Of a stretch of DNA of 64,000 bases, positions 27,311 to 38,805 are shown in pieces. Under the pieces are notes generated by a model that worked only from the letters and a program-made list of their open reading frames with translations, did not search any database and was not told the DNA's origin. The stretch comes from Hymenobacter aquaticus (GTDB taxonomy: Bacteria > Bacteroidota > Bacteroidia > Cytophagales > Hymenobacteraceae). Position 1 is the first letter of the stretch; the number at the start of each line of letters is the position of its first letter. The DNA lies in assembly GCF_004765605.1 (NCBI RefSeq), contig NZ_SRLC01000002.1, forward strand, positions 682,001 through 746,000. Reading direction: 5' to 3'. A program made the translations under genes and the position numbers.

Positions 27311-28609
27311 ATGTCACTTTCATTTGAAAAAGCAAAGGTTTTAAATCCGAAAAGGAGTAGTGATACTACAACTAATCGTGTCAATTGGCATGATTACTAT
27401 GCTGGTTACTCTTCTGAATTTGCTTATGCTATACTAAGTTCAATTGGGCTAAATAAAGAAAGTTTAGTTATGGATCCTTGGAATGGAGCCGGTACAACTA
27501 CACTTGCAGCTAGCGCTATTGGTTACAAATCGGTAGGATTCGACCTTAATCCTGTTCCTGTAATAATAGCTAAAGCGTTTAAAATTAGTTACGGTGAGAA
27601 GCCTAGTATTGTTCCTTTGCTAAGTAAAATAATTAATAAGTTTAAAGTAATCAATATTAAATATGATTCCAATGATCCATTGAGATTATGGTTTAAGGAA
27701 GATTCTTCTTGTTATATTAGGGCTCTTGAGCGTTCAATTCAATATTTTTTGATTCAAGAGCAAAAAGGAAAATATGTGTTTATTAAATCTAATGTTAATT
27801 TAGTGTCCGAAATAGCTGCCTTTTTTTACTTGGCTGTTTTTCGAGTTGTACGGTCGTTAATAGGGCAATTTCAATCTTCTAACCCAACTTGGGTGAAACA
27901 GCCTAAAGATGAACATAGTAAAGTTTCGATTGATAAGAACTCTATTCGTTTAGCGTTCGTGTCAGAAGTTAATGCTATGTTAGAAAATTTTGATCCGGTT
28001 TTTGATAACAGTGCTAATGCTGAGTCTAAGTTATTTATAGGTAACTCACTAAATATACAATGCGAAAAAAATTCTGTTGACTTTGTTTTATCTTCTCCTC
28101 CTTATTGTACTAGAATAGATTATGGTGTGTATACTATGCCAGAACTATGCGTTCTTGGTTTATTTAAAAGTGAATTAGATAATTTGCGTAGGAGCCTAAT
28201 TGGGTCAACTACTGTTCCAAAGAATGCTCCTGCCTCCTCTGTAGAGTGGGGTGAGGTCTGTAATTCGTTTTTGGATGAAGTGAAAAATCATCCATCAATA
28301 TCTTCTGATACATACTACTTGAAAAATCACTTACAGTATTTTGATCTAATGTTTAGTTCTCTGTTGGAAATAAATAGGGTGTTGAAAAAAGGTGGCGCCT
28401 GTACGCTAGTTGTTCAAGACTCTTATTATAAAGATGTTCATAATGATCTTCCTGAAATAATTTCTCAAATGGGGAATAATTTAGGTTGGAGTTTGGCGAT
28501 TAAGAAAGAATTTCCTTCTTTGTTTAATATGTCAGGTGTCAATCCTGGGGTAAAAAGATACCGTAAGCAAACCGATGCGACGGAGAGTGTTCTGGTTTTT
28601 TCAAAATAA
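27311..28609 (+). CDS. DNA amino-methyltransferase-like protein (AT-rich island)
   Basis: 432 residues. The AdoMet-binding motif I is MDPWNGAGTTTLAASA (Asp55), followed by VGFDLNP (motif II type). The catalytic motif IV is SSPPY at 261-265, of the N4-cytosine/N6-adenine class. Between them is ~170 residues of unrecognised sequence in the position of a target-recognition region. A late segment (LEINRVLKKGGACTLVVQDS) is typical of this fold. Base composition is far more AT-rich than the neighbours, a clear sign of transfer. First gene of a tight operon with the DUF262 gene (11-base gap) and the HEPN gene. Likely self-marking, but the target base is unknown. Confidence 0.88.
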   Translation: MSLSFEKAKVLNPKRSSDTTTNRVNWHDYYAGYSSEFAYAILSSIGLNKESLVMDPWNGAGTTTLAASAIGYKSVGFDLNPVPVIIAKAFKISYGEKPSIVPLLSKIINKFKVINIKYDSNDPLRLWFKEDSSCYIRALERSIQYFLIQEQKGKYVFIKSNVNLVSEIAAFFYLAVFRVVRSLIGQFQSSNPTWVKQPKDEHSKVSIDKNSIRLAFVSEVNAMLENFDPVFDNSANAESKLFIGNSLNIQCEKNSVDFVLSSPPYCTRIDYGVYTMPELCVLGLFKSELDNLRRSLIGSTTVPKNAPASSVEWGEVCNSFLDEVKNHPSISSDTYYLKNHLQYFDLMFSSLLEINRVLKKGGACTLVVQDSYYKDVHNDLPEIISQMGNNLGWSLAIKKEFPSLFNMSGVNPGVKRYRKQTDATESVLVFSK

Positions 28610-28620
28610 AATATTAAACA

Positions 28621-29763
28621 ATGTCAAAAAAGACTAATTCTGTCACCGTTCTAAGTGCAGTAGACGCTAAACTTCAAAAAGTTCATACCCAAAGTTTGGA
28701 TCTTTCTTTTAATGAACTATTAGATATGTATGTAAGTGGGGAATTAATAATCAATCCTGATTACCAACGTGTATTTAGATGGTCAGAGGGGGCTCAGTCA
28801 AGATTTATTGAATCTCTGTTATTGGAAATGCCAGTTCCGCCTATCTACGTGGTAGAAGTAAAGGAAGGTAGGTACATGCTCATAGATGGTTTACAGCGCA
28901 TTTCAACATACCTGCATCTGCGAGGAGAACTTAAAGCAAGCCATTTGACTCCTCCAATAAATAAAGGGGATGTTTTGAAATTGGTGGATTGTGACATCGT
29001 GGAGGAACTTAACGGAATGACTTTTGATACTTTGGGTGTTGCGTTGCAAATTAGACTGAAGAGGGCTTTTGTTAGAGTAGAAGTCGTTAGAAAAGGCAGT
29101 GATAAGAAGTTTAAATATCATATGTTTAAGAGATTGAATACTGGTGGAGAATTGCTTACTGGGCAGCAACTTAGAAACTGCACTATACGGCTGTTGGATG
29201 ATAAGTTTAATGATTTTATTATTAAATTAAGTACTAAAGACGAATTTGTGACTTGTATAGACTCAATAACTTATGAACAGAGGTTGGGGGCCTTTGATCA
29301 AGAATTAGTTTTACGATTTTTTGCTCTTAAAAATGACATAACCTCATTCAAGCATGATGTTGCTGATTTCTTAACCGATTATATGGAGAAAGTTGCCGAG
29401 TCTAATGATAAGAGTTTTTTTGTGTACAAAGATGAGGAAAAGATTTTTGTGAAAACCTTTTCTATATTTTACAATACTCTAGGAGATTACAGTTTTGGGC
29501 AGGTTAATAAAGGTGCAATTACTCGTGGGTTTGGGGTATATCAATTTGAAGCATTGTCTGTAGGTATACAGCCTTATATAGATAAAATAGACCTAAAAAG
29601 CAAGAAGCAATTAGAGGATATTTCTCAGAAAATACGTCAAATAAAGCTTGATCCTACATTCGTTTCCTTAACTACAGGTGGTGGTAAAAATTCTCCCGGA
29701 CTTTTAAGGAAGCGTATTCAATTTGTTGTTGAGGAATTGAAAAGCTTTTTCAGTGCGATATGA
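28621..29763 (+). CDS. DUF262 (GmrS-like ParB/nuclease-fold) protein
   Basis: 380 residues. The N-terminal DUF262 domain is complete: IINPDYQRVFRWSEGAQSRF with FIESLLLEMPVPPIYV, the DGLQR motif at 89-93, and FKRLNTGGELLTGQQLRN. DUF262 is the NTP-using half of the GmrSD type IV restriction enzymes and of several defence systems. No C-terminal DUF1524 HNH domain is visible, so the usual GmrD nuclease is missing here. It shares an ATGA overlap with the HEPN gene, suggesting coupled synthesis. AT-rich like its neighbours. Confidence 0.9.
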   Translation: MSKKTNSVTVLSAVDAKLQKVHTQSLDLSFNELLDMYVSGELIINPDYQRVFRWSEGAQSRFIESLLLEMPVPPIYVVEVKEGRYMLIDGLQRISTYLHLRGELKASHLTPPINKGDVLKLVDCDIVEELNGMTFDTLGVALQIRLKRAFVRVEVVRKGSDKKFKYHMFKRLNTGGELLTGQQLRNCTIRLLDDKFNDFIIKLSTKDEFVTCIDSITYEQRLGAFDQELVLRFFALKNDITSFKHDVADFLTDYMEKVAESNDKSFFVYKDEEKIFVKTFSIFYNTLGDYSFGQVNKGAITRGFGVYQFEALSVGIQPYIDKIDLKSKKQLEDISQKIRQIKLDPTFVSLTTGGGKNSPGLLRKRIQFVVEELKSFFSAI

Positions 29764-30452
29764 TAGCTGACGATTTAATAGCCGAGTTGGAGTTTGATAT
29801 AGAGTGGAGGTTTGACGAAATTAGGTTCTATCATAATATAATAGCTAGGTTAAGTGATAATGGTGAAAAAATGCGGATGCGTAGAGCTGTAATCGTAATG
29901 CTATATGCACACTTTGAAGGGTTTGCAAAGTTTGCATTTCAGGTTTATGTGAAGTTTATTAATATATCTAACGTAAAAGGCCGAGATGTCGTGTATCCTG
30001 TGCTTGCTGCTAGTATAATGAAAGAAATAAAGGGGTTAAATAATTTGAATCAAAAATCTCCAATATTTAGAAATGAATCTCCAGAGGATACTGATTTGCA
30101 TCTTCTGGCTAGAAGTATAGAATTCGTTGAAAGGCTTGGTGAATTAAGTGAAAGGTGTATTAATTTGAAAGAAGATGATGTCGTGAATACCGAATCAAAT
30201 CTTACTCCTGTTGTTATGAGAAAGATATTATTTAGGCTAGGTTTTCCATATAATGATTTATCAAGCGTTGAAAGTAGTATTCAAAAACTACTAGGTTTTC
30301 GGAATGCTATTGCTCATGGAAAGATGAGAGAAGGAATAGAAGCTAGTGTGTATGAAAAGATACATCAAGATGTCTTTGCGCTAATTAATGCAGTTAAGAG
30401 AAAAGTAAGTGCCGCAATAATGGGTTCAGAATTTCTGAAAACGGCAACGTAA
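29760..30452 (+). CDS. HEPN nuclease, MAE_28990/MAE_18760-like
   Basis: 230 residues, helical. It starts with the family's typical region (EFDIEWRFDEIRFYHNIIAR) and RRAVIVMLYAHFEGFAKFAF, and ends with the HEPN RNase motif RNAIAH (Arg181-x4-His186) within GFRNAIAHGKM. HEPN proteins of this kind are usually RNA-cleaving toxins in defence systems. Its ATG overlaps the stop of the DUF262 gene (ATGA). I infer that it is the effector of the three-gene operon. Family placement is by recall of the motif pattern. Confidence 0.85.
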   Translation: MIADDLIAELEFDIEWRFDEIRFYHNIIARLSDNGEKMRMRRAVIVMLYAHFEGFAKFAFQVYVKFINISNVKGRDVVYPVLAASIMKEIKGLNNLNQKSPIFRNESPEDTDLHLLARSIEFVERLGELSERCINLKEDDVVNTESNLTPVVMRKILFRLGFPYNDLSSVESSIQKLLGFRNAIAHGKMREGIEASVYEKIHQDVFALINAVKRKVSAAIMGSEFLKTAT

Positions 30453-30511: not shown

Positions 30512-30690
30512 CTACACTCCCGCCTTCTCCTCACCGCCCAGCTCACTCAGAATCTGCTTCGCCGCGCCCACGCTTTTCACCTCCTCGATGCTGATGATGA
30601 GCTGTTCCTTGCGCTCCTTCATGGAGGCGGAGCGGGGGTGGGTCTGGATGTAGTTGAGGATGTTGCCGAACTGGTCGCCCTAGAAGTAAG
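30512..30690 (-). pseudogene. Relic 1 of the mfd 3' end
   Basis: On the minus strand this reads as the last ~59 codons of mfd with its own stop (TAG at 30512-30514), ending GGEEKAGV. By hand I count about 16 mismatches and no gaps against 35275-35453 of the intact gene, many at third positions. An internal stop has arisen (AYF-stop-GDQFG, TAG at 30680-30682). Homology stops abruptly after 30690. It lies between the HEPN and ATPase cassettes. The similarity suggests a copy from a related strain, not a recent local duplication. Confidence 0.9.
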
Positions 30691-30768
30691 CATTTAGCCG
30701 GGCTTCGGGCACCATACCCACATTCCGGCCCAACCCGCGTACTTTGTGGCAAATCCTTGCTTTGCCTT

Positions 30769-32025
30769 ATGCCTGACTCTGCCGCGGCCCCTGGTTTTCC
30801 TCGCCTCACCTACCTGCGCATCAAGAACTACCGCGCCCTGCGCGACGTGGAGCTGCGCGACCTGACGCCGCTGACGGTGTTTATCGGGCCGAATGGGAGC
30901 GGGAAGTCCACGGTGCTGGATGCGCTGGCCTTTCTGGCCGAGGCGGTGAGCGGGAATTTGCAGCAGGCCTGGGAGAAGCGGAACCGGTTTGCCGGCATGC
31001 GCACGCGGGGGCAGGAGGGGGCTATTGAGTTTGAGGTAAAAATCTCTCTCGATTCTGGAGAAATATTGACCTATGTATTTCAAGTAGATGAAAGAGACGG
31101 TTTAGTGTGGGTTACGGATGAAGTGCTACATGTCGGTTTTCAGGATGAGGGGGTGAAAATATTCTATCTTGATGAGTCAGCCTTTTCGAGAACAACTCTT
31201 GGAAGATCAAATATTTATAGAAGCGAAAAACTCACGGATATAGGCATTACAAAAACATCGGCTTTAGAGTCTTTACTACTACTTCGAAGTCGGACAGGAG
31301 AATACTACCAGATAGCACATCAACTTGGTTTAGAGCCATCTTTTGAAGTTATATTCTCACAAATCCTCACCTCCTACCGCTACATCCACCTCACCGACGA
31401 CCACCTGAAGGGCTACTCCGATGCCGGGCCGCGGGAGAAGCTGTCGGCCAACGGGGACAACCTGCCCAACGTGCTGTATTACCTGCACACCCGGCACCCG
31501 GCGGCGCTGGCCCGCGTCACGGAGAAGCTGCGGCGCTGGGTGCCGGGGCTGGCCGACGTGGTGCCGGAAATTACCTCGGATGAGCGGCTGCTGCTGCGCT
31601 TCCGGGATGCGCCGTTTGAGAAGCCCCTGCCGGCCCAGTATATGTCGGACGGCACGATGCGGCTGGCGGCGCTGCTCACGCTGCTCTACGAGCCGCAGGC
31701 TACCGGGCTGCTGGGCATCGAGGAGCCGGAAAACGAGCTGCACCCGCGCCTGCTGGCCCGGCTGGCCGAGGAGCTGGTGGCGGCCACCGCGACGCGGCAG
31801 CTGCTGGTGGCTACCCACTCGCCCTTGCTGCTGGATGCCCTGGAGCCCGAGCAGGTCTGGATTCTGCACCGGGGCGCGGATGGCTACACCCGGGCCACGC
31901 GCACGGCCGATATTGCGCAGGTGAAGGAGGCGGTGGCGGATGGCTCGCCGCTGGGCTACCTCTGGACCAGCAACTTCTTCCGCCTCGGCGACCCGCTGGC
32001 CCCCCTTACCTCAGCCGACCGGTAG
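30769..32025 (+). CDS. AAA-type ATPase (OLD/ABC-like, COG4637-type)
   Basis: 418 residues from the ATG at 30769. Walker A is IGPNGSGKST (39-48), the ABC-like signature region is YMSDGTMRLAALLTLLYEP, Walker B is LLGIEEPENELHP and the switch His is in LLVATHSPLLLDAL. Such stand-alone ATPases pair with TOPRIM-type nucleases in defence systems. Residues ~88-200 are coded by DNA much richer in A/T than both ends of the gene, so the gene is a mosaic. The downstream gene starts one base after the stop, so the two form an operon. Confidence 0.9.
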   Translation: MPDSAAAPGFPRLTYLRIKNYRALRDVELRDLTPLTVFIGPNGSGKSTVLDALAFLAEAVSGNLQQAWEKRNRFAGMRTRGQEGAIEFEVKISLDSGEILTYVFQVDERDGLVWVTDEVLHVGFQDEGVKIFYLDESAFSRTTLGRSNIYRSEKLTDIGITKTSALESLLLLRSRTGEYYQIAHQLGLEPSFEVIFSQILTSYRYIHLTDDHLKGYSDAGPREKLSANGDNLPNVLYYLHTRHPAALARVTEKLRRWVPGLADVVPEITSDERLLLRFRDAPFEKPLPAQYMSDGTMRLAALLTLLYEPQATGLLGIEEPENELHPRLLARLAEELVAATATRQLLVATHSPLLLDALEPEQVWILHRGADGYTRATRTADIAQVKEAVADGSPLGYLWTSNFFRLGDPLAPLTSADR

Positions 32026-32026
32026 G

Positions 32027-32629
32027 ATGCACATCGAGTTTCTGCTGGAAGAAGAATCGGCCAAGGCCGCCCTGGATCTGCTGTTGCCCAGGCTGCTGCC
32101 GGCCGGGGTGACGTGGTGGTGCCATTTTCACCGGGGCAAAACCGACCTGCTGCACCGCTTGCCCGGCCGGCTGAAAACCTACGCCCGGCAGTTGGCCGGC
32201 CAGCCCGATTTGCGGGTGGTGATTCTGATGGATGCCGATACGGACTGCCGGCGGGCGAAGGCCGAGCTGGAGAAGATGGTAGCCGACGCGGGCCTGCTAA
32301 CCAAAGCCACGGCGGCCGGGCGGCCTTACCATATTCTTACCCGGCTGGCGGTGCAGGAGCTGGAAGCCTGGTTTCTCGGCGACCGGGACGCTATTCGGGC
32401 GGCCTACCCCCGGGTCCGGCCCCAGCACTTCAGCGGCCTGCCCCCCGACCCGGATACCATAGCCGACACCTGGGAAACGCTGTTGCGGGTGTTGCAAAAG
32501 GCCGATGCCGGGGCCACGAAAGGAAAAATACGGTGGGCCGAAACCATTGCCCCGCACCTGGAGCCAGCCCGGAATAAGTCGGCCAGCTTTCAGGTTTTCC
32601 GGCAGGGGCTGGCGGCGTTATCGGCGTAA
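32027..32629 (+). CDS. DUF4276-like protein, probable TOPRIM fold
   Basis: 200 residues. The N-terminus has the acidic start HIEFLLEEESAKAALD, in the place of the TOPRIM Glu, and VVILMDADTDCRRAK at 64-78 supplies a DxDxD acidic cluster (Asp69, 71, 73). AVQELEAWFLGD is characteristic of DUF4276 proteins. The ATPase stop and this ATG are one base apart. By analogy with ATPase/TOPRIM pairs such as PARIS or OLD/Gabija-type systems, it may be the nuclease effector. Assignment to DUF4276 is from pattern recall. Confidence 0.8.
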   Translation: MHIEFLLEEESAKAALDLLLPRLLPAGVTWWCHFHRGKTDLLHRLPGRLKTYARQLAGQPDLRVVILMDADTDCRRAKAELEKMVADAGLLTKATAAGRPYHILTRLAVQELEAWFLGDRDAIRAAYPRVRPQHFSGLPPDPDTIADTWETLLRVLQKADAGATKGKIRWAETIAPHLEPARNKSASFQVFRQGLAALSA

Positions 32630-32655
32630 GAAAAGCCGCCCGCCCGTCAGCCCGT

Positions 32656-32850
32656 CATGCTGAGCGCAGCGGAGCGGAATCGAAGCATCTCTACCGCTTC
32701 GTCGCAACGGTATAGGATTACTACCGCGGTAGAGATGCTTCGGCTTCGCGGACGCCAGATCAGGCATGACGTTCTGTTCCCAACAACGTCAGCACGCGAG
32801 ATTCCTCGGACTCTGCTTCATGCGCAGAATGCTCGGAATGACGTTCTGTT
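32656..32850. repeat. Dispersed intergenic element with a 17-bp inverted repeat
   Basis: CGAAGCATCTCTACCGC (32681-32697) and its complement (32726-32742) form a stem. The flanks carry CATGCTGAGCGCAGCGGAGC to the left and, to the right, GCATGACGTTCTGTT (32764-32778) and GGAATGACGTTCTGTTTGCC (32836-32855), so the right part contains a direct repeat about 72 bases apart. The sequence style matches the stretch near 24706-24740. Confidence 0.7.
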
Positions 32851-32871
32851 TGCCCGGCTGCTGCCCGGCTG

Positions 32872-32976
32872 CTACAGGCCCACCTCCTCCTCGCTGCCCA
32901 GCGCGCTCAGGATTCGCATGGCGGCGCCTGCGCTTTTCACCTCCTCGCTGCTGAGCTGTTTCTTGCGCTCCTTCAT
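32872..32976 (-). pseudogene. Relic 2 of the mfd 3' end
   Basis: Minus-strand reading is MKERKKQLSSEEVKSAGAAM followed by RILSALGSEEEVGL and a TAG stop at 32872-32874, matching the last 36 codons of mfd (MKERKEQLIISIDEVKSVGA and so on). Relative to mfd two codons are missing. It is more diverged than relic 1. It closes the ATPase/TOPRIM cassette on its right side; the next cassette's promoter starts ~20 bases later. Confidence 0.88.
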
Positions 32977-32998
32977 ACCGACAGAAAGGAACTACAAG

Positions 32999-33006
32999 TA
33001 CCTTTG
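32999..33006 (+). promoter_or_regulatory. Candidate -7 box of the third TonB-like gene
   Basis: TACCTTTG matches TAnnTTTG and lies 37 bases before the ATG at 33044. No clear -33 TTTG is visible. Confidence 0.4.
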
Positions 33007-33043
33007 GCTACGGTAGCAGTTAGCTACTGCATACCTATCTGTC

Positions 33044-33793
33044 ATGCGAAAACCATACGCTCTGCCTGTAGCAGCCTTATTGACCCTTCTTCCGCTCGTC
33101 AGCTTCGGGCAGGAAACCAAACAGGTAAACGTTAAATCTCAGAATCCCTGGCAGCGGGAGGAGTACTCGGTGCTGAAGTCGGATCCGAAGGTCAAGCACG
33201 GGCTATACCGTGGGTATGTAGGAGGCGCGCGGGAGGTGCTGGCAATGGAAGGGTATTACACCAACGGCCAGAAAGACAGTCTGTGGACGCTATACAACCG
33301 GTGGTCGAACAAGCCGGAGCTGCAGGCCCGGGGCCGCTACCAGCAAGGCCAGAAAGTGGGCGTGTGGGAATACTACGCGGGCAAGAATGAACTCGAACAG
33401 CGCTACGACCATACCCGGGGGCAGCTGCTGCTGCACAAGGCGGACGAGAAGTCTAAGATTACGTTTACCCCGGTGGGTACGTCAGCCGCTCTCGAACGGG
33501 AAGCCGTGTATATCGGCGGAATCACGACGGTGATGAACTTTATCGGGACCAACGTGCGGTACCCGGTAGACGCCCTGCGCGCCCAGAAGTCGGGCACGGT
33601 GCGCATCGCCTTTACCATTGCCCCGGATGGTTCGGTTTCTAATTATCGGGTGGCTAAGTCGGCTTTTGCTAGTCTGGATGAAGAATCGTTACGGGTCATA
33701 AAGCTCGTGCCGGCTACGTGGGTGCCGGCGCAGGCCGCCGGCCAGCCGGTGGCAGTCGAGTGTGAGATACCCGTAGTCTACACCGTGCGATAG
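33044..33793 (+). CDS. Secreted MORN-like/TonB C-terminal domain protein, paralogue 3
   Basis: 249 residues with a signal peptide ending PLVSFGQ. It shares the architecture of the genes at 8817 and 9629: SVLKSDPKVKHGLYRGY, GYYTNGQKDSLWTLYNRW, GRYQQGQKVGVWEYYAGKNE, then a TonB C-terminal domain (KSGTVRIAFTIAPDGSVSNY, DEESLRVIKLVPATWVPAQA). The C-terminal copies of the third paralogue lack the GCDEE cysteine (here SLDEE). It lies alone between two mfd relics, so it looks like a separately acquired cassette. Confidence 0.88.
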   Translation: MRKPYALPVAALLTLLPLVSFGQETKQVNVKSQNPWQREEYSVLKSDPKVKHGLYRGYVGGAREVLAMEGYYTNGQKDSLWTLYNRWSNKPELQARGRYQQGQKVGVWEYYAGKNELEQRYDHTRGQLLLHKADEKSKITFTPVGTSAALEREAVYIGGITTVMNFIGTNVRYPVDALRAQKSGTVRIAFTIAPDGSVSNYRVAKSAFASLDEESLRVIKLVPATWVPAQAAGQPVAVECEIPVVYTVR

Positions 33794-33797
33794 GAGC

Positions 33798-33836
33798 ACA
33801 AAAAAAGCCTGCCCCATTCCGGGGCAGGCTTTTTTG
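33798..33836. terminator. Intrinsic terminator after the third TonB-like gene
   Basis: AAAAAAGCCTGCCCC (33800-33814) pairs with GGGGCAGGCTTTTTT (33821-33835). Confidence 0.9.
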
Positions 33837-33851
33837 GGGCTAATTTGGCTG

Positions 33852-33946
33852 CTACACGCCCACCTTCTCGATGCTGACGCTGAGCTGTTCCTAGTGCTCC
33901 TTCTCATGGAGGCGGAGCGGGGGTGGGGGGCAGGAGGTAGTGGAGG
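33852..33946 (-). pseudogene. Relic 3 of the mfd 3' end, internally deleted
   Basis: Reads EKVGV and a TAG stop at its end (33852-33854), then jumps over about 60 bases of mfd and resumes with the part complementary to GAACAGCTCAGCGTCAGCAT and GGAGGCGGAGCGGGGGTGGG. Further bases (AGGTAGTGGAGG) match mfd up to ~33946. It directly abuts the stop codon of the M50-like gene. Confidence 0.82.
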
Positions 33947-33950
33947 GAGG

Positions 33951-35171
33951 TTAGATGGCGGTAGCCGCCGCGCGAGAGGCCTGCCGAATCTGGGTTTGCA
34001 GCTGGTCCATTCGCTCGAAGGCTTGGAGGGTGCTACCGCTGCTGGGTTGCTCCTGAAGCTGCTTCTGGGCGGCTTGCAGCCAGTTGTCGGCTTCGTGCAT
34101 CCGGCCTTCCACGTAGGCTACGGCCGCTCGGGCAAACAGGGCTTCGTCTTTGCCAAAGGGCTTTGCCTGCTGGGCAAGCTCAAGCCAGTACCGGGCCTGC
34201 TGGGCGTCCTGCGAATGCAAAGCGGCGACATACGCGCCTTCCGCAAACAAGTATTGCTGCATGCTCACAGAGGTGGTATGGCGACGGTCGATGGCTTCAT
34301 TGAGGTGCAGGCGCAGCGCTTCGGCGTCATTGCAGTCGTGGTAGTAGCTGTAGGCGTACAGGTGCGCGTAGCAGTCGAGGGCGGTATTGCTGGGGTGGGC
34401 CAGCAGCTGCTCAAGCAGCGCCGGGTCCCAGTCGCGGGGGCGGGTACTGCGGTTGGGCAGGCTGGAAAGGTGGAGAATGGCTAACTGCTGGTGCATGGCC
34501 GGGCCGCCTTGGTATAGGTGCTTCAGCTGGGTGCCATCGTTCAAATAGCCGGAAGCCGACTTAACCGGTAAAAGGTTTGTTAGCGCTACCAGCATAGACA
34601 GCCAGCCGAACACCAAAAGGAAGTTGGTGAACAGGTAGCCTCCCAGCGTTAGCCAGGCGGCAGCGTCATCCTTCAGTATCCGATGTATTATCAGCGCCGC
34701 GGCTCCACTGAGGAGCGTAGCGGCCGGGCCTCCCGCAATGAACAGGAAATAGCGTGAGCGTAGGCGCCGGGTATGCGTCGGTAGCGCCTCGACCAAGCCT
34801 CCCACTTTATGTTCCGGTTTCTTGAAGCGGACTTTCCAGGCGGTTGCTTTCCGCTCGATGCGCAGCCAGCTAGCATAGAACTTCTGTATCTGGAATTTCG
34901 CCAGGAGTGCTCCCACGGCATGGCCTGCCTCGTGCACCAGCACTATTAGCCGCAAGGCCACCAGCAGGCTACTACCCCAAATGCCTATCAGGACCGGCCC
35001 GGACAGTTGCAAAATAGCCGCCTGGGCTTGCAGCTGATTTTTCCAATCCTCCCCCTTTAGTGCCCAGAATAACACGATCCAGAAAGCCAGGAAAGCTCCG
35101 ATCATCCATCCTTTCTGGCGTTTCTCCTTCACTGGGTCACGCGGAGCATCGGGCTGCGAAAGGTCTATCAT
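33951..35171 (-). CDS. M50-type membrane zinc metalloprotease (site-2-protease-like) with helical C-terminal region
   Basis: 406 residues. Segments at ~22-40, 55-80, 140-162 and 172-200 are hydrophobic. The zinc motif VHEAGHAVGALLAKF (HEAGH) lies in the second, and the third ligand is probably Asp in GYLNDGTQLKHLY. The last ~180 residues are soluble and helical with a TPR-like rhythm (ARYWLELAQQAKPFGKDEAL). It probably cleaves membrane-embedded or membrane-near substrates. It is the last cassette before mfd, read in the same direction as mfd but separated from it by a terminator. Confidence 0.85.
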   Translation of the reverse strand: MIDLSQPDAPRDPVKEKRQKGWMIGAFLAFWIVLFWALKGEDWKNQLQAQAAILQLSGPVLIGIWGSSLLVALRLIVLVHEAGHAVGALLAKFQIQKFYASWLRIERKATAWKVRFKKPEHKVGGLVEALPTHTRRLRSRYFLFIAGGPAATLLSGAAALIIHRILKDDAAAWLTLGGYLFTNFLLVFGWLSMLVALTNLLPVKSASGYLNDGTQLKHLYQGGPAMHQQLAILHLSSLPNRSTRPRDWDPALLEQLLAHPSNTALDCYAHLYAYSYYHDCNDAEALRLHLNEAIDRRHTTSVSMQQYLFAEGAYVAALHSQDAQQARYWLELAQQAKPFGKDEALFARAAVAYVEGRMHEADNWLQAAQKQLQEQPSSGSTLQAFERMDQLQTQIRQASRAAATAI

Positions 35172-35214
35172 AAGTCAGCGAAGGATAAAAAGCGGGTGCT
35201 CGTTGTGAGGGCAA

Positions 35215-35250
35215 TAAAAATAGGCGCTATTCCCGGAGAAATAGCGCCTA
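35215..35250 (-). terminator. Intrinsic terminator of mfd
   Basis: TAGGCGCTATT (35221-35231) pairs with AATAGCGCCTA (35240-35250); the A run at 35216-35220 gives T residues on the minus strand. Confidence 0.85.
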
Positions 35251-35274
35251 TCAGCGTTTGGGCTAAGGATTAAT

Positions 35275-38200
35275 TCACACCCCCACCTTCTCTTCACTGC
35301 CCAGCTCGCTCAGAATCCGCTTGGCTGCGCCCACGCTTTTTACCTCGTCGATGCTGATGATGAGCTGTTCCTTGCGCTCCTTCATGGAGGCGGAGCGGGG
35401 GTGGGTCTGGAGGTAGTGGAGGATGTTGCCGAACTGGTCGCCCTGGAAGTAGGCTTCGTTGTTGGTGGCCGGGATGTAGCCTTTGAGCAGGTTTTTCTTG
35501 AGGGTGAGCTTTTCGAAGCCCACCTGGCAGGCCTGCCAGCGCAGGCGCACGATGTCGGCCAGCTGCTCGACCTCCTGGGGCAGGGGGCCGAAGCGGTCCA
35601 CGATGCCGGCCACGAGCTTGCGCAGCTCCTCGGGGCCTTTCACCCGGTCGAGCTTGCTGTAGAGCTGGAGGCGCTCGGAGACGTTGCTCACGTAGTTATC
35701 GGGGATGAGGATTTGCAGGTCGGTTTCGATGTTGCACTCCTTGGGACCCTTGGTGGCGGCGGCTTCCTGGAGGCGCTGGGTGGGGTCGCCGAGGAACAGG
35801 TCGCGGAACTCGGTTTCCTTGAGCTCCTGCACGGCCTCGTCCAGGATCTGGTGGTAGGTTTCGAAGCCCAGGTCGTTGATAAAGCCTGACTGCTCGCCGC
35901 CCAGCAGGTTGCCGGCCCCGCGAATGTCCAGGTCGCGCATGGCTACCTTGAAGCCGTCGCCGAGGTCGGAAAATTCTTCCAGGGTGCTCAGGCGCTTGCG
36001 GGCATCACTGGGCAGGCCGGCCACGGGCGGGGTGAGCAGGTAGCAGTAGGCCTTTTTGTTGGAGCGGCCCACGCGGCCCCGCATCTGGTGCAGGTCGGAG
36101 AGGCCGTGCATGTGGGCGCGGTTGATGATGATGGTGTTGGCGTTCGGGATGTCGAGGCCCGACTCAATCAGGTTGGTGCTCACCAGCACGTCGTACTCGC
36201 CGTCGACGAACTTCATCATGCGCTTTTCGAGCTGGTCGCCTTCCATCTGCCCGTGGATGGTGGTGACGCGGGCGTCGGGCACGAGGCGCAGAATCATGTT
36301 GGCCAGCTCGTCGATGTCCTTCACCCGGTTGTGCACGAAGAACACCTGGCCGCCGCGCTTCAATTCGCGGGCCACGGCGTCGCGCACCAGCAGCTCGTCG
36401 AAGACGTGCAGCTCGGTCTGAACCGGCTGGCGGTTCGGCGGGGGCGTGGCAATAACCGACAGGTCGCGGGCGCCCATCAGGGAGAAGTGCAGGGTGCGCG
36501 GAATGGGCGTGGCCGAGAGGGTTAGCGTGTCCACGTTCACCTTCAGCTCCTTGAGCTTGTCCTTGGTCTTGACCCCGAACTTCTGCTCTTCGTCGATGAT
36601 GAGCAACCCCAGGTCCTTGAACTTGATGTCCTTGTTGGTGAGGCGGTGGGTGCCGATGAGGATGTCGGTTTTGCCCTCGGCCACCCGGGCCAGCGTCTCC
36701 TTGATTTGCTTGGTGGTCTTGAAGCGGTTCACGTACTCCACCGTCACGGGCAGGTTGGCGAGCCGCTCGCGGAAGGTTTTGTAGTGCTGCATGGCCAGGA
36801 TGGTAGTGGGCACCAGCACGGCCGCCTGCTTGCCATCGGCCACCGACTTGAACGCGGCCCGGATGGCTACCTCGGTTTTGCCGAAGCCCACGTCGCCGCA
36901 CACGAGGCGGTCCATGGGGTGGGGCTGCTCCATGTCGTGCTTCACGTCCTCGGTGGCCTTGGCCTGGTCGGGCGTGTCCTCATATATAAAGCTGGATTCC
37001 AGCTCGGCCTGCATAAAGGAGTCGCGGGCAAAGGCGTGGCCGGGCGCGGTTTTGCGCTTGGCGTAGAGCCGGATCAGCTCGGCGGCAATGTCCTTGACCT
37101 TTTTCTTAACCGACTTCTTCTTGTTTTCCCACTCCGGGGAGCCCAGCTTACTCATGGTGGGCGGCGTGCCCTCGGCCCCGGAGTACTTGGCAATCTTGTG
37201 CAGGGCGTGGATGCTGACGGTCAGCACGTCGTCGTCGCGGTAGACGAGGCGGATGGCCTCCTGGAGCCGGTCGTTGATTTCGACCTGGGTGAGGCCGGCG
37301 AAGCGGGCAATGCCGTAGTCCTGGTGCACCACGTAGTCGCCGGGCACCAGGGTGCGCAGCTCCTTCAGGGTCAGGGCCTTTTTCTTGGAGAACTTCCGGC
37401 CTTCCTGAGCCCGGTAGAACCGCTCAAACAGCTGGTGGTCGGTGTAGACCACGAGCTTGAGCACGTCGTCCACGAACCCCTCGCGCAAACCCAGCAGCAG
37501 GTGCTGAAACTGCACGTTGTTATCGAGCTCGTCGAAGATGGTGCGCAGCCGGTCGGCCTGCCGGACGGATTCGGCCGCAATGACGTTGGTAAAGCCCTTT
37601 TCCTGGTTGTCGTGCAGGTTCTTGACCAGGCGGCTGAAGTCCTTGTTGAAGCTGGGCTGGGGCTTGGCGCTGAACGAAAACTCCTCAGCCCCGGCCTTGA
37701 AGTGAAACCGTTTGCCGAACTCCACGATGGGAAACCCGTCGAGCAGCTTCTTGAACGACTTGCCCGACTCGAACAAATCCTCGGGCTTGCTCACGATCTG
37801 CACGCCGCCGGCCGCGGCCAGCATTTCCTTGAAGCCCGCCTCGGCCCGGTCGAACGATTCCTCCACAATGTCCAGGGTCTGGCGCACGTCCTTGGCCCAG
37901 ATGGCGGTGTTGCGGGGGATGAAGTCCAGAAACGCCTCCCGGGTTTCCTGGAGCAGCTTGGTTTGCACGTTCGGGATGATGCTCACCTGCTGGCGCTTCT
38001 CCACCGACAATTGGCTTTCGGGGTCGAAGGTGCGGATGGTTTCCACCTCGTCGCCGAACAGCTCGATGCGGTAGGGCAGCTCGTTGGCGTAGCTGAAGAT
38101 GTCCACGATACCGCCGCGCACGGCAAACTGGCCCGCCTCGTACACAAAGTCGCTCCGCTCGAAGTCGTACTCGGCCAGCATGTCGCTGATAAAGTTGACG

Positions 38201-38805
38201 TCGAGCTTGTCGCCGACCTTCACAATAAAGGTGTTGGCCACCAGGCTTTTCTTGTTGATAACCTTCTCGAACAGCGCCTCGGGGTAGGTGACGATGAGGG
38301 CCCCGGCCGTATCCTTCACGCTGATTTTCTTGCCCTTTTTGCTCTTCTCCGCGCCTTCCGGCAGGGCGTCGTCGGCATCCTCGGAGGCCTTTTCGGCGGC
38401 GGTTTTCGGGCCCCGGTGGCTATTGAGCTTGTTGAGCACCTCGGCCCGCATCAGCACGTTGGCGTTTTCCGTCTCGTCGAAGGCGTAGGGGCGCTTGTAG
38501 GAGCTGGGGAACAAGAGCGGCTCTTCGTCGGGGGCCAGGTGCTGGAGGTCGGCCAGGAAGTAGGCGGCCTCGTCCCGGTCGTGGAGGATGAAGAGGTGGT
38601 GCTGATCCGGGAACTCCTGGTGCAGGGCGGCGGCCAGCACGGCGTCCTGGCTGCCCACCAGGCCGCGCAGGTGCAGGCGCGCGGGTGCGTCGGCCTTGGC
38701 GTCGGCGGGGCGCAGGGAGTGGCGGGTGGCCGGGTTCAGGCGGGCTCCCACGGTCAGCACGGTGGGGTCAAGGGAGTAGAGCTGGAGGAAATCGGAAACC
38801 TTCAA
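35275..38805 (-). CDS. mfd: Transcription-repair coupling factor Mfd
   Basis: 1176 residues, full length for the family. In order: UvrB-like N-terminal domains, the RNA-polymerase-interaction domain with LVPGDYVVHQDYGIARFAGL, helicase motifs GDVGFGKTEVAIRAAF (Walker A), IDEEQKFGV (DEEQ box), LSATPIPRTL, VSTNLIESGLDIPNANTIII, MRGRVGRS, and the C-terminal TRCF domain. Mfd removes stalled RNA polymerase and recruits UvrA. The start is a TTG at 38805 (reads LKVSDFLQLYS); no ATG is available nearby. Its 3' end is the sequence found three more times as relics between 30.5 and 34 kb. Confidence 0.97.
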   Translation of the reverse strand: MKVSDFLQLYSLDPTVLTVGARLNPATRHSLRPADAKADAPARLHLRGLVGSQDAVLAAALHQEFPDQHHLFILHDRDEAAYFLADLQHLAPDEEPLLFPSSYKRPYAFDETENANVLMRAEVLNKLNSHRGPKTAAEKASEDADDALPEGAEKSKKGKKISVKDTAGALIVTYPEALFEKVINKKSLVANTFIVKVGDKLDVNFISDMLAEYDFERSDFVYEAGQFAVRGGIVDIFSYANELPYRIELFGDEVETIRTFDPESQLSVEKRQQVSIIPNVQTKLLQETREAFLDFIPRNTAIWAKDVRQTLDIVEESFDRAEAGFKEMLAAAGGVQIVSKPEDLFESGKSFKKLLDGFPIVEFGKRFHFKAGAEEFSFSAKPQPSFNKDFSRLVKNLHDNQEKGFTNVIAAESVRQADRLRTIFDELDNNVQFQHLLLGLREGFVDDVLKLVVYTDHQLFERFYRAQEGRKFSKKKALTLKELRTLVPGDYVVHQDYGIARFAGLTQVEINDRLQEAIRLVYRDDDVLTVSIHALHKIAKYSGAEGTPPTMSKLGSPEWENKKKSVKKKVKDIAAELIRLYAKRKTAPGHAFARDSFMQAELESSFIYEDTPDQAKATEDVKHDMEQPHPMDRLVCGDVGFGKTEVAIRAAFKSVADGKQAAVLVPTTILAMQHYKTFRERLANLPVTVEYVNRFKTTKQIKETLARVAEGKTDILIGTHRLTNKDIKFKDLGLLIIDEEQKFGVKTKDKLKELKVNVDTLTLSATPIPRTLHFSLMGARDLSVIATPPPNRQPVQTELHVFDELLVRDAVARELKRGGQVFFVHNRVKDIDELANMILRLVPDARVTTIHGQMEGDQLEKRMMKFVDGEYDVLVSTNLIESGLDIPNANTIIINRAHMHGLSDLHQMRGRVGRSNKKAYCYLLTPPVAGLPSDARKRLSTLEEFSDLGDGFKVAMRDLDIRGAGNLLGGEQSGFINDLGFETYHQILDEAVQELKETEFRDLFLGDPTQRLQEAAATKGPKECNIETDLQILIPDNYVSNVSERLQLYSKLDRVKGPEELRKLVAGIVDRFGPLPQEVEQLADIVRLRWQACQVGFEKLTLKKNLLKGYIPATNNEAYFQGDQFGNILHYLQTHPRSASMKERKEQLIISIDEVKSVGAAKRILSELGSEEKVGV

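Follow-up and report, generated by a model that had tools for sequence, protein, structure and literature searches.

A probable clade-specific hotspot of gene exchange behind mfd in Hymenobacter, mostly for small predicted anti-phage cassettes

Islands and prophages that insert at the 3' ends of genes, such as tRNA genes and icd, bring a new gene end on the near side, leave the old end as a relic on the far side, and possess an integrase as well as a fixed att core. The DNA behind mfd, which encodes the transcription-repair coupling factor, shares this layout of new end and old relic in Hymenobacter, but it differs in that the relics start at varying points and no integrase is seen. Fixed chromosomal sites that gather different defence genes, as the mfd site appears to do, have been described in Escherichia coli, where some of the defence-island integration hotspots have unclear mobilisation; unlike the mfd site, however, they hold mostly prophages, satellites and integrase elements, and mfd is not mentioned in the text of that paper (PMC10121019). 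Also similar are cDHS1 and cDHS2 of Pseudomonas aeruginosa, which have conserved core flanks, are almost always occupied and show fast turnover of anti-phage genes; many of these sites are without mobility genes, and transduction and homologous recombination have been proposed to act there (PMC10250203). They differ in their much larger size (cDHS1 has a median of 26 kb), in their position next to tRNA/tmRNA genes and in frequently containing transposases (PMC10250203), whereas a cassette at the mfd site is about 2 kb long, abuts the stop codon of a protein gene and leaves relics of the gene end. One homologous and one irregular end, with partial duplication, are also features of homology-facilitated illegitimate recombination (PMC3240628) and of the merodiploids formed in transformation (PMC3784515), although both were described in the laboratory in other bacteria and do not usually produce short duplications of the target. 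The mfd site bears on a wider question, the turnover of defence genes where no mobility genes are present. Each addition would leave a dated scar in the form of a truncated neighbour gene, so that order, donor lineage and crossover point may be legible from the sequence, and the site could be a compact place to look for new defence genes. Literature searches for an mfd hotspot returned no on-topic paper.

The window, by which we mean the whole stretch of 64,000 nucleotides that was analysed (Hymenobacter aquaticus, contig NZ_SRLC01000002.1, positions 682,001 to 746,000), contains an intact mfd and three relics of its 3' end, separated by blocks of unrelated function (Table 1). The original prediction, made from this sequence alone, that three decayed copies of the mfd end lie in the orientation of the gene and finish at its stop codon was confirmed by alignment and by a search of the whole genome with the mfd end, which gave exactly four matches, namely mfd and the three relics, all of which have the mfd orientation and a stop codon at the position of the mfd stop. 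The four blocks, judged by their Pfam matches, are likewise as they had been described. Relic 1 had been said to match the local mfd without gaps at about 16 differences; positions 30514-30691 indeed align ungapped with 35277-35454, with 14 differences over the 178 nt (92%). By protein, relic 1 extends to 30718, about -205 from the mfd stop; it has an in-frame TAG at about 30683 (30683-30685), the AT-rich putative defence block comes next, and no copy of the relic was found in phage and plasmid collections. Relics bear in-frame stops and indels, and length tends to fall with decay, as though the upstream side had been trimmed away.

Table 1. Positions of mfd, its relics and the intervening gene blocks in the window
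Feature	Position	Strand	Evidence
mfd (transcription-repair coupling factor), intact	35275..38805	-	ORF of 1176 aa; 60 related loci have an orthologue that shares its 3' end
Relic 1 of mfd 3' end	30512..30718	-	92% over 178 nt to 35277-35454; tblastn residues 1109-1176
Relic 2 of mfd 3' end	32872..32976	-	about 80% over 109 columns, E 1e-21, with deletions
Relic 3 of mfd 3' end	33854..33946 (start approximate)	-	81%, E 1e-19, internal deletions
Block 1: Peptidase_M50 gene, first behind mfd	33951..35171	-	PF02163
Block 2: TonB_C-domain gene	33044..33793	+	PF03544, E 7.8e-16
Block 3: AAA_21 ATPase, probably starting at ATG 30769	30757..32025	+	PF13304, E 8e-37
Block 3: gene paired with the ATPase, DUF4276 (TOPRIM-like)	32027..32629	+	PF14103, E 1.3e-16
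Block 4, AT-rich: HEPN protein (MAE_28990/RiboL-PSP type)	29760..30452	+	PF18737, E 1.3e-30
Block 4, AT-rich: DUF262/GmrSD_N-type protein	28621..29763	+	GmrSD_N Pfam match
Block 4, AT-rich: DNA methylase (N6_N4_Mtase)	27311..28609	+	PF01555

We compared the DNA behind mfd in 61 loci, those of the window and of 60 further Hymenobacter genomes picked because their mfd ends are similar. Conservation of the coding sequence reaches up to the mfd stop, and the bases that follow are unlike in nearly every one of the 61 genomes, so that the order of cassettes is not shared among relatives; an invariant order, which the original prediction had named as a refuting outcome, was thus not seen. A conserved flank borders variable content, as in a defence hotspot flanked by core genes. 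In 39 of the 61 genomes, an AT-rich block sets in right at the mfd stop; in seven more the block lies farther downstream, and in six of these (G000, the window, and G015, G022, G030, G061 and G065) it directly follows an mfd relic. These blocks span 1.55-3.45 kb (median 2.3 kb) and have about 30-37% GC, compared with 60-65% for the genomes; in block 4 of the window, the DNA methylase gene has 35-39% against about 63% in the surroundings. By comparison, twenty random 20-kb segments of the same genomes (400 kb) contained two AT-rich blocks of at least 1.5 kb, both in one segment. With the last 600 nt of mfd as query (E<1e-6), 11 genomes gave downstream copies, every one of them on the plus strand; none appeared on the minus strand of the 61 loci or with three internal 600-nt segments of mfd as queries. 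The relics derive only from the last ~410 nt of the gene and in one orientation only, a chance origin is excluded, and the last ~100 nt of mfd are the left anchor of the hotspot. In a sister genus (including Solirubrum and some genomes named Hymenobacter), four of seven genomes have AT-rich blocks behind mfd and two of seven have relics; relics are absent from 20 more distant Hymenobacter and 13 other Hymenobacteraceae. Frame breaks or in-frame stops, possibly sequencing errors, occur in mfd or its last 2400 nt at loci L034, L040 and L051.

What the cassettes encode was assessed by a domain scan of the main AT-rich ORF of 40 genomes together with the GmrSD protein of the window, 41 in all. ATPase domains (AAA_15/AAA_21) of the OLD/GajA/PtuA type occur in 15 of the 41, about 11 more have NACHT, GmrSD, AIPR, HATPase, HD-CE, STAND, KAP or M78 domains, and about a third have no informative Pfam match; PADLOC matches to OLD/GajA/PtuA also occur among cassette proteins. 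The content is therefore enriched for predicted anti-phage genes, as would be expected of a defence hotspot between core genes. One to four genes, mostly in the same direction, make up an AT-rich block. Other recurrent cassettes are GC-rich and host-like: ATPase/DUF4276, M50, TonB_C and a HicAB-like small pair, the second gene of which matches HicA weakly (E 3e-4, below Pfam's cut-off). As had been noted at the outset, no integrase is visible: none of the Pfam matches listed for cassette proteins belongs to an integrase or transposase family, although one listing ends at its first 25 families and a weak match may lie beyond it, and the nearest tyrosine recombinase of this genome is about 140 kb from the locus, so that the integrase within the element that characterizes integrase-type islands was not found. 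Tn7-like elements are recognised by TnsABC/TniQ genes and end repeats, and no transposition gene is among the listed matches. Taken together, these genome comparisons give good support to the view that the DNA behind mfd is a new, clade-specific hotspot of gene exchange, mostly for small cassettes of predicted anti-phage genes.

The M50 cassette type of the window is also found, as shared segments, behind mfd or a relic in G004, G050 and G092, and there are terminator relatives in G102 and G117. Close homologues of the window ATPase were found in 12 of 24 other genomes tested, solely at the mfd locus each time, which makes this cassette patchy (13 of 25 genomes with the window) and always placed at mfd. 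The ATPase of the window is 88% identical to that of G050 and 74% identical to that of G015, whereas mfd identity for the same pairs is 89% and 94%; relatedness of the cassette, as judged from these sequences, conflicts with that of the hosts. The 1.5 kb behind the G013 relic is 94% identical to the sequence immediately behind mfd in G015, and modules headed by an mfd end stand in opposite order in these two genomes. At its end, the ATPase/DUF4276 cassette has a conserved promoter-like stretch upstream of 30769, with homologues in 12 genomes, and an inverted repeat of the type AATGTGGGTA-NNN-TACCCGCATT, perhaps an operator.

The clearest trace of exchange within mfd itself comes from G065. The last 97 nt of its working gene match G068 at 88 and the sister species G004 at 70 positions, whereas those of its relic match G004 at 88, G034 at 91 and the G068 lineage at 72 of 97. 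Most of the G065 mfd matches G004 at 94-99%, and between -450 and -180 only at 86-97%. The relic is thus the native end, and the gene has an imported one. In this one clear case, the sequences show a foreign end on the working gene with the displaced original behind it, as in integrase-type islands; this agrees with the prediction that insertions bring a replacement end, and it speaks against relics being merely local tandem duplicates, as the G065 relic is not a simple copy of the local end. For other genomes, replacement is suggested. The G092 relic aligns with its mfd from -406 at 98%, reaching 100% from -250 to -60 and falling to 75% over the last 60 nt; the G061 relic is 97-100% identical and then 81%, with a break near -60, and G079 has a similar break. 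G022 has the opposite gradient (98% over the last 60 nt), and the remainder are ambiguous, such that G065 is the sole clear example of a foreign end with a native relic. That relic 1 of the window came from a related strain, as had been proposed, could not be demonstrated: over the last 60 nt, the relic resembles sister species no more than the local end does. In sliding windows along mfd, synonymous divergence peaks in the last 60 nt (0.25 for close pairs, with a mean of 0.12), but other windows come near, so that the phylogenetic signal is at most weakly indicated to be lost at the mfd end through exchange.

The reading we favor, and consider fairly probable, is that homologous recombination feeds this exchange hotspot, with one junction anchored in the mfd end and the second one irregular. 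We infer recombination at the gene end to be the driver: donor DNA would enter there, and if its other end recombined in shared right-flank sequence, a clean swap of cassettes would result. If instead the second junction were irregular and fell within the resident mfd end, the new cassette would be added before the old one and a truncated mfd end would be left. Such an insertion would bring a new last ~60-100 nt of mfd and turn the old end into a downstream relic, and repeated additions, together with recombination between copies of the mfd end, could build the serial array of the window. Natural transformation and transduction are candidate carriers; ComEC and DprA are present. Of the readings considered, this one best fits the hypervariability, the AT-rich blocks at the mfd stop, the specificity of the relics, the replaced end of G065, the falls in identity within the G092 and G061 relics, the module swap between G013 and G015, the varying relic starts, the patchy ATPase cassette that is always at mfd and at odds with host relatedness, and the lack of an integrase. 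However, several points argue against it. G065 alone shows a clear foreign end, and G022 has the reverse gradient. No relic is detectable at most occupied sites, 39 in number. Relic and mfd of G065 and of G092 are alike upstream of the crossover, which calls for a duplication of the target, and ordinary homology-facilitated illegitimate recombination does not obviously give one. Lastly, HicAB-like cassettes, found with a relic in G022, G061, G065 and G079, always end 0-3 nt before it, counted from the last stop codon of the pair, which a random second junction would not predict. In the window, about 4 nt similarly separate the M50 stop codon from the start of relic 3; tight packing of cassette against relic might reflect trimming of idle DNA.

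It would be tempting to see here the work of elements with a tyrosine or serine integrase, inserted at an attB in the mfd 3' end, bringing a replacement end and losing the integrase later, as at tRNA genes or icd. The displaced gene end on the far side with the replaced end of G065, the strict orientation of the relics, a target confined to one gene end and the confinement of the hotspot to clades with particular mfd tails would all suit such integration. The relic starts do not: they range from about -406 to -132, with values of about -242, -233, -215 and -173 behind the HicAB-like cassette and about -205, -278 and -141 behind the ATPase cassette, so that even one cassette gives no single crossover core, and this variation disfavors a fixed att core. 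Relics also include mfd sequence upstream of the inferred crossover. With variable starts and no integrase near, we regard site-specific integration as unlikely, and the analogy with tRNA genes drawn in the original prediction is not borne out, recombination in the mfd end being the better fit. A circle carrying its own mfd fragment and entering by a single crossover was also considered and rejected; under that model each cassette should have a single relic start and the 5' part of the relic should be of donor type, the latter not seen in G065.

The right border offers a further candidate signal. A palindrome of ~145 nt, which folds into a long hairpin, has an arm at the right end of 17 of the 46 blocks. 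With a covariance model built from nine of its copies, which match by construction, about 12 of the 61 loci have strong copies (three in one locus) and several further loci have weaker copies. Matches in 906 kb of control DNA and distant loci were marginal only, and in G014, G059 and G110 the only good matches to the core are at the mfd locus. The palindrome has no match in Rfam. It might be supposed that a dedicated exchange system, integrase-free or trans-acting, recognises the mfd end and this single-copy palindrome and renews the mfd end at each exchange, which we consider improbable; that the two serve as cassette borders for a recombinase encoded elsewhere seems to us about as improbable. 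In support of such a trans-acting system, the variable segment runs from the mfd stop to the palindrome in a subset of genomes, once into it (in G062, the stop codon of a cassette gene lies inside the palindrome), and the element is nearly confined to the locus. On the other hand, strong copies are restricted to the dozen or so loci above, the palindrome is absent from the window and from many occupied sites, it resembles a conserved part of the right flank, and no common motif was seen at cassette ends. Nor is this the arrangement of an integron, with an attC per cassette and IntI: the palindrome usually occurs once per locus and is missing in most, and no integrase lies at the locus. A simple tandem duplication of the local mfd end, with later decay and insertion of unrelated genes, is very improbable. 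Several relics do have the local mfd as their nearest match (G022, 98% over the last 60 nt; G092, 98% over 400 nt), but only the 3' end is ever copied and always with a cassette between, G013 and G015 have swapped modules, and in G065 relic and mfd ends come from different lineages, which already refutes the duplication for that genome if the sequence holds.

Several smaller features of the flanks deserve mention. Near-perfect hairpins with stems of about 25-29 bp, different in each genome, lie within the first ~80 nt past the mfd stop at L087, L035, L034 and L065; they were rejected as a common element, as they share no sequence and look like bidirectional terminators of convergent genes. The palindrome at the right end is imperfect (-75 to -85 kcal/mol), with copies at L048:11700-11846, L037:11190-11333, L066:7228-7374, L084:6696-6840, L035:6122-6263 and others. 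The right flank is formed in 26 of the 61 genomes by a 230-aa gene that has no Pfam match, upstream of which degenerate tandem repeats of ~24 nt (TTGCCACGGTCGGTGAG...) occur at L034, about 2247-2540 nt behind the mfd stop, and also at L035, L045, L048 and L039.
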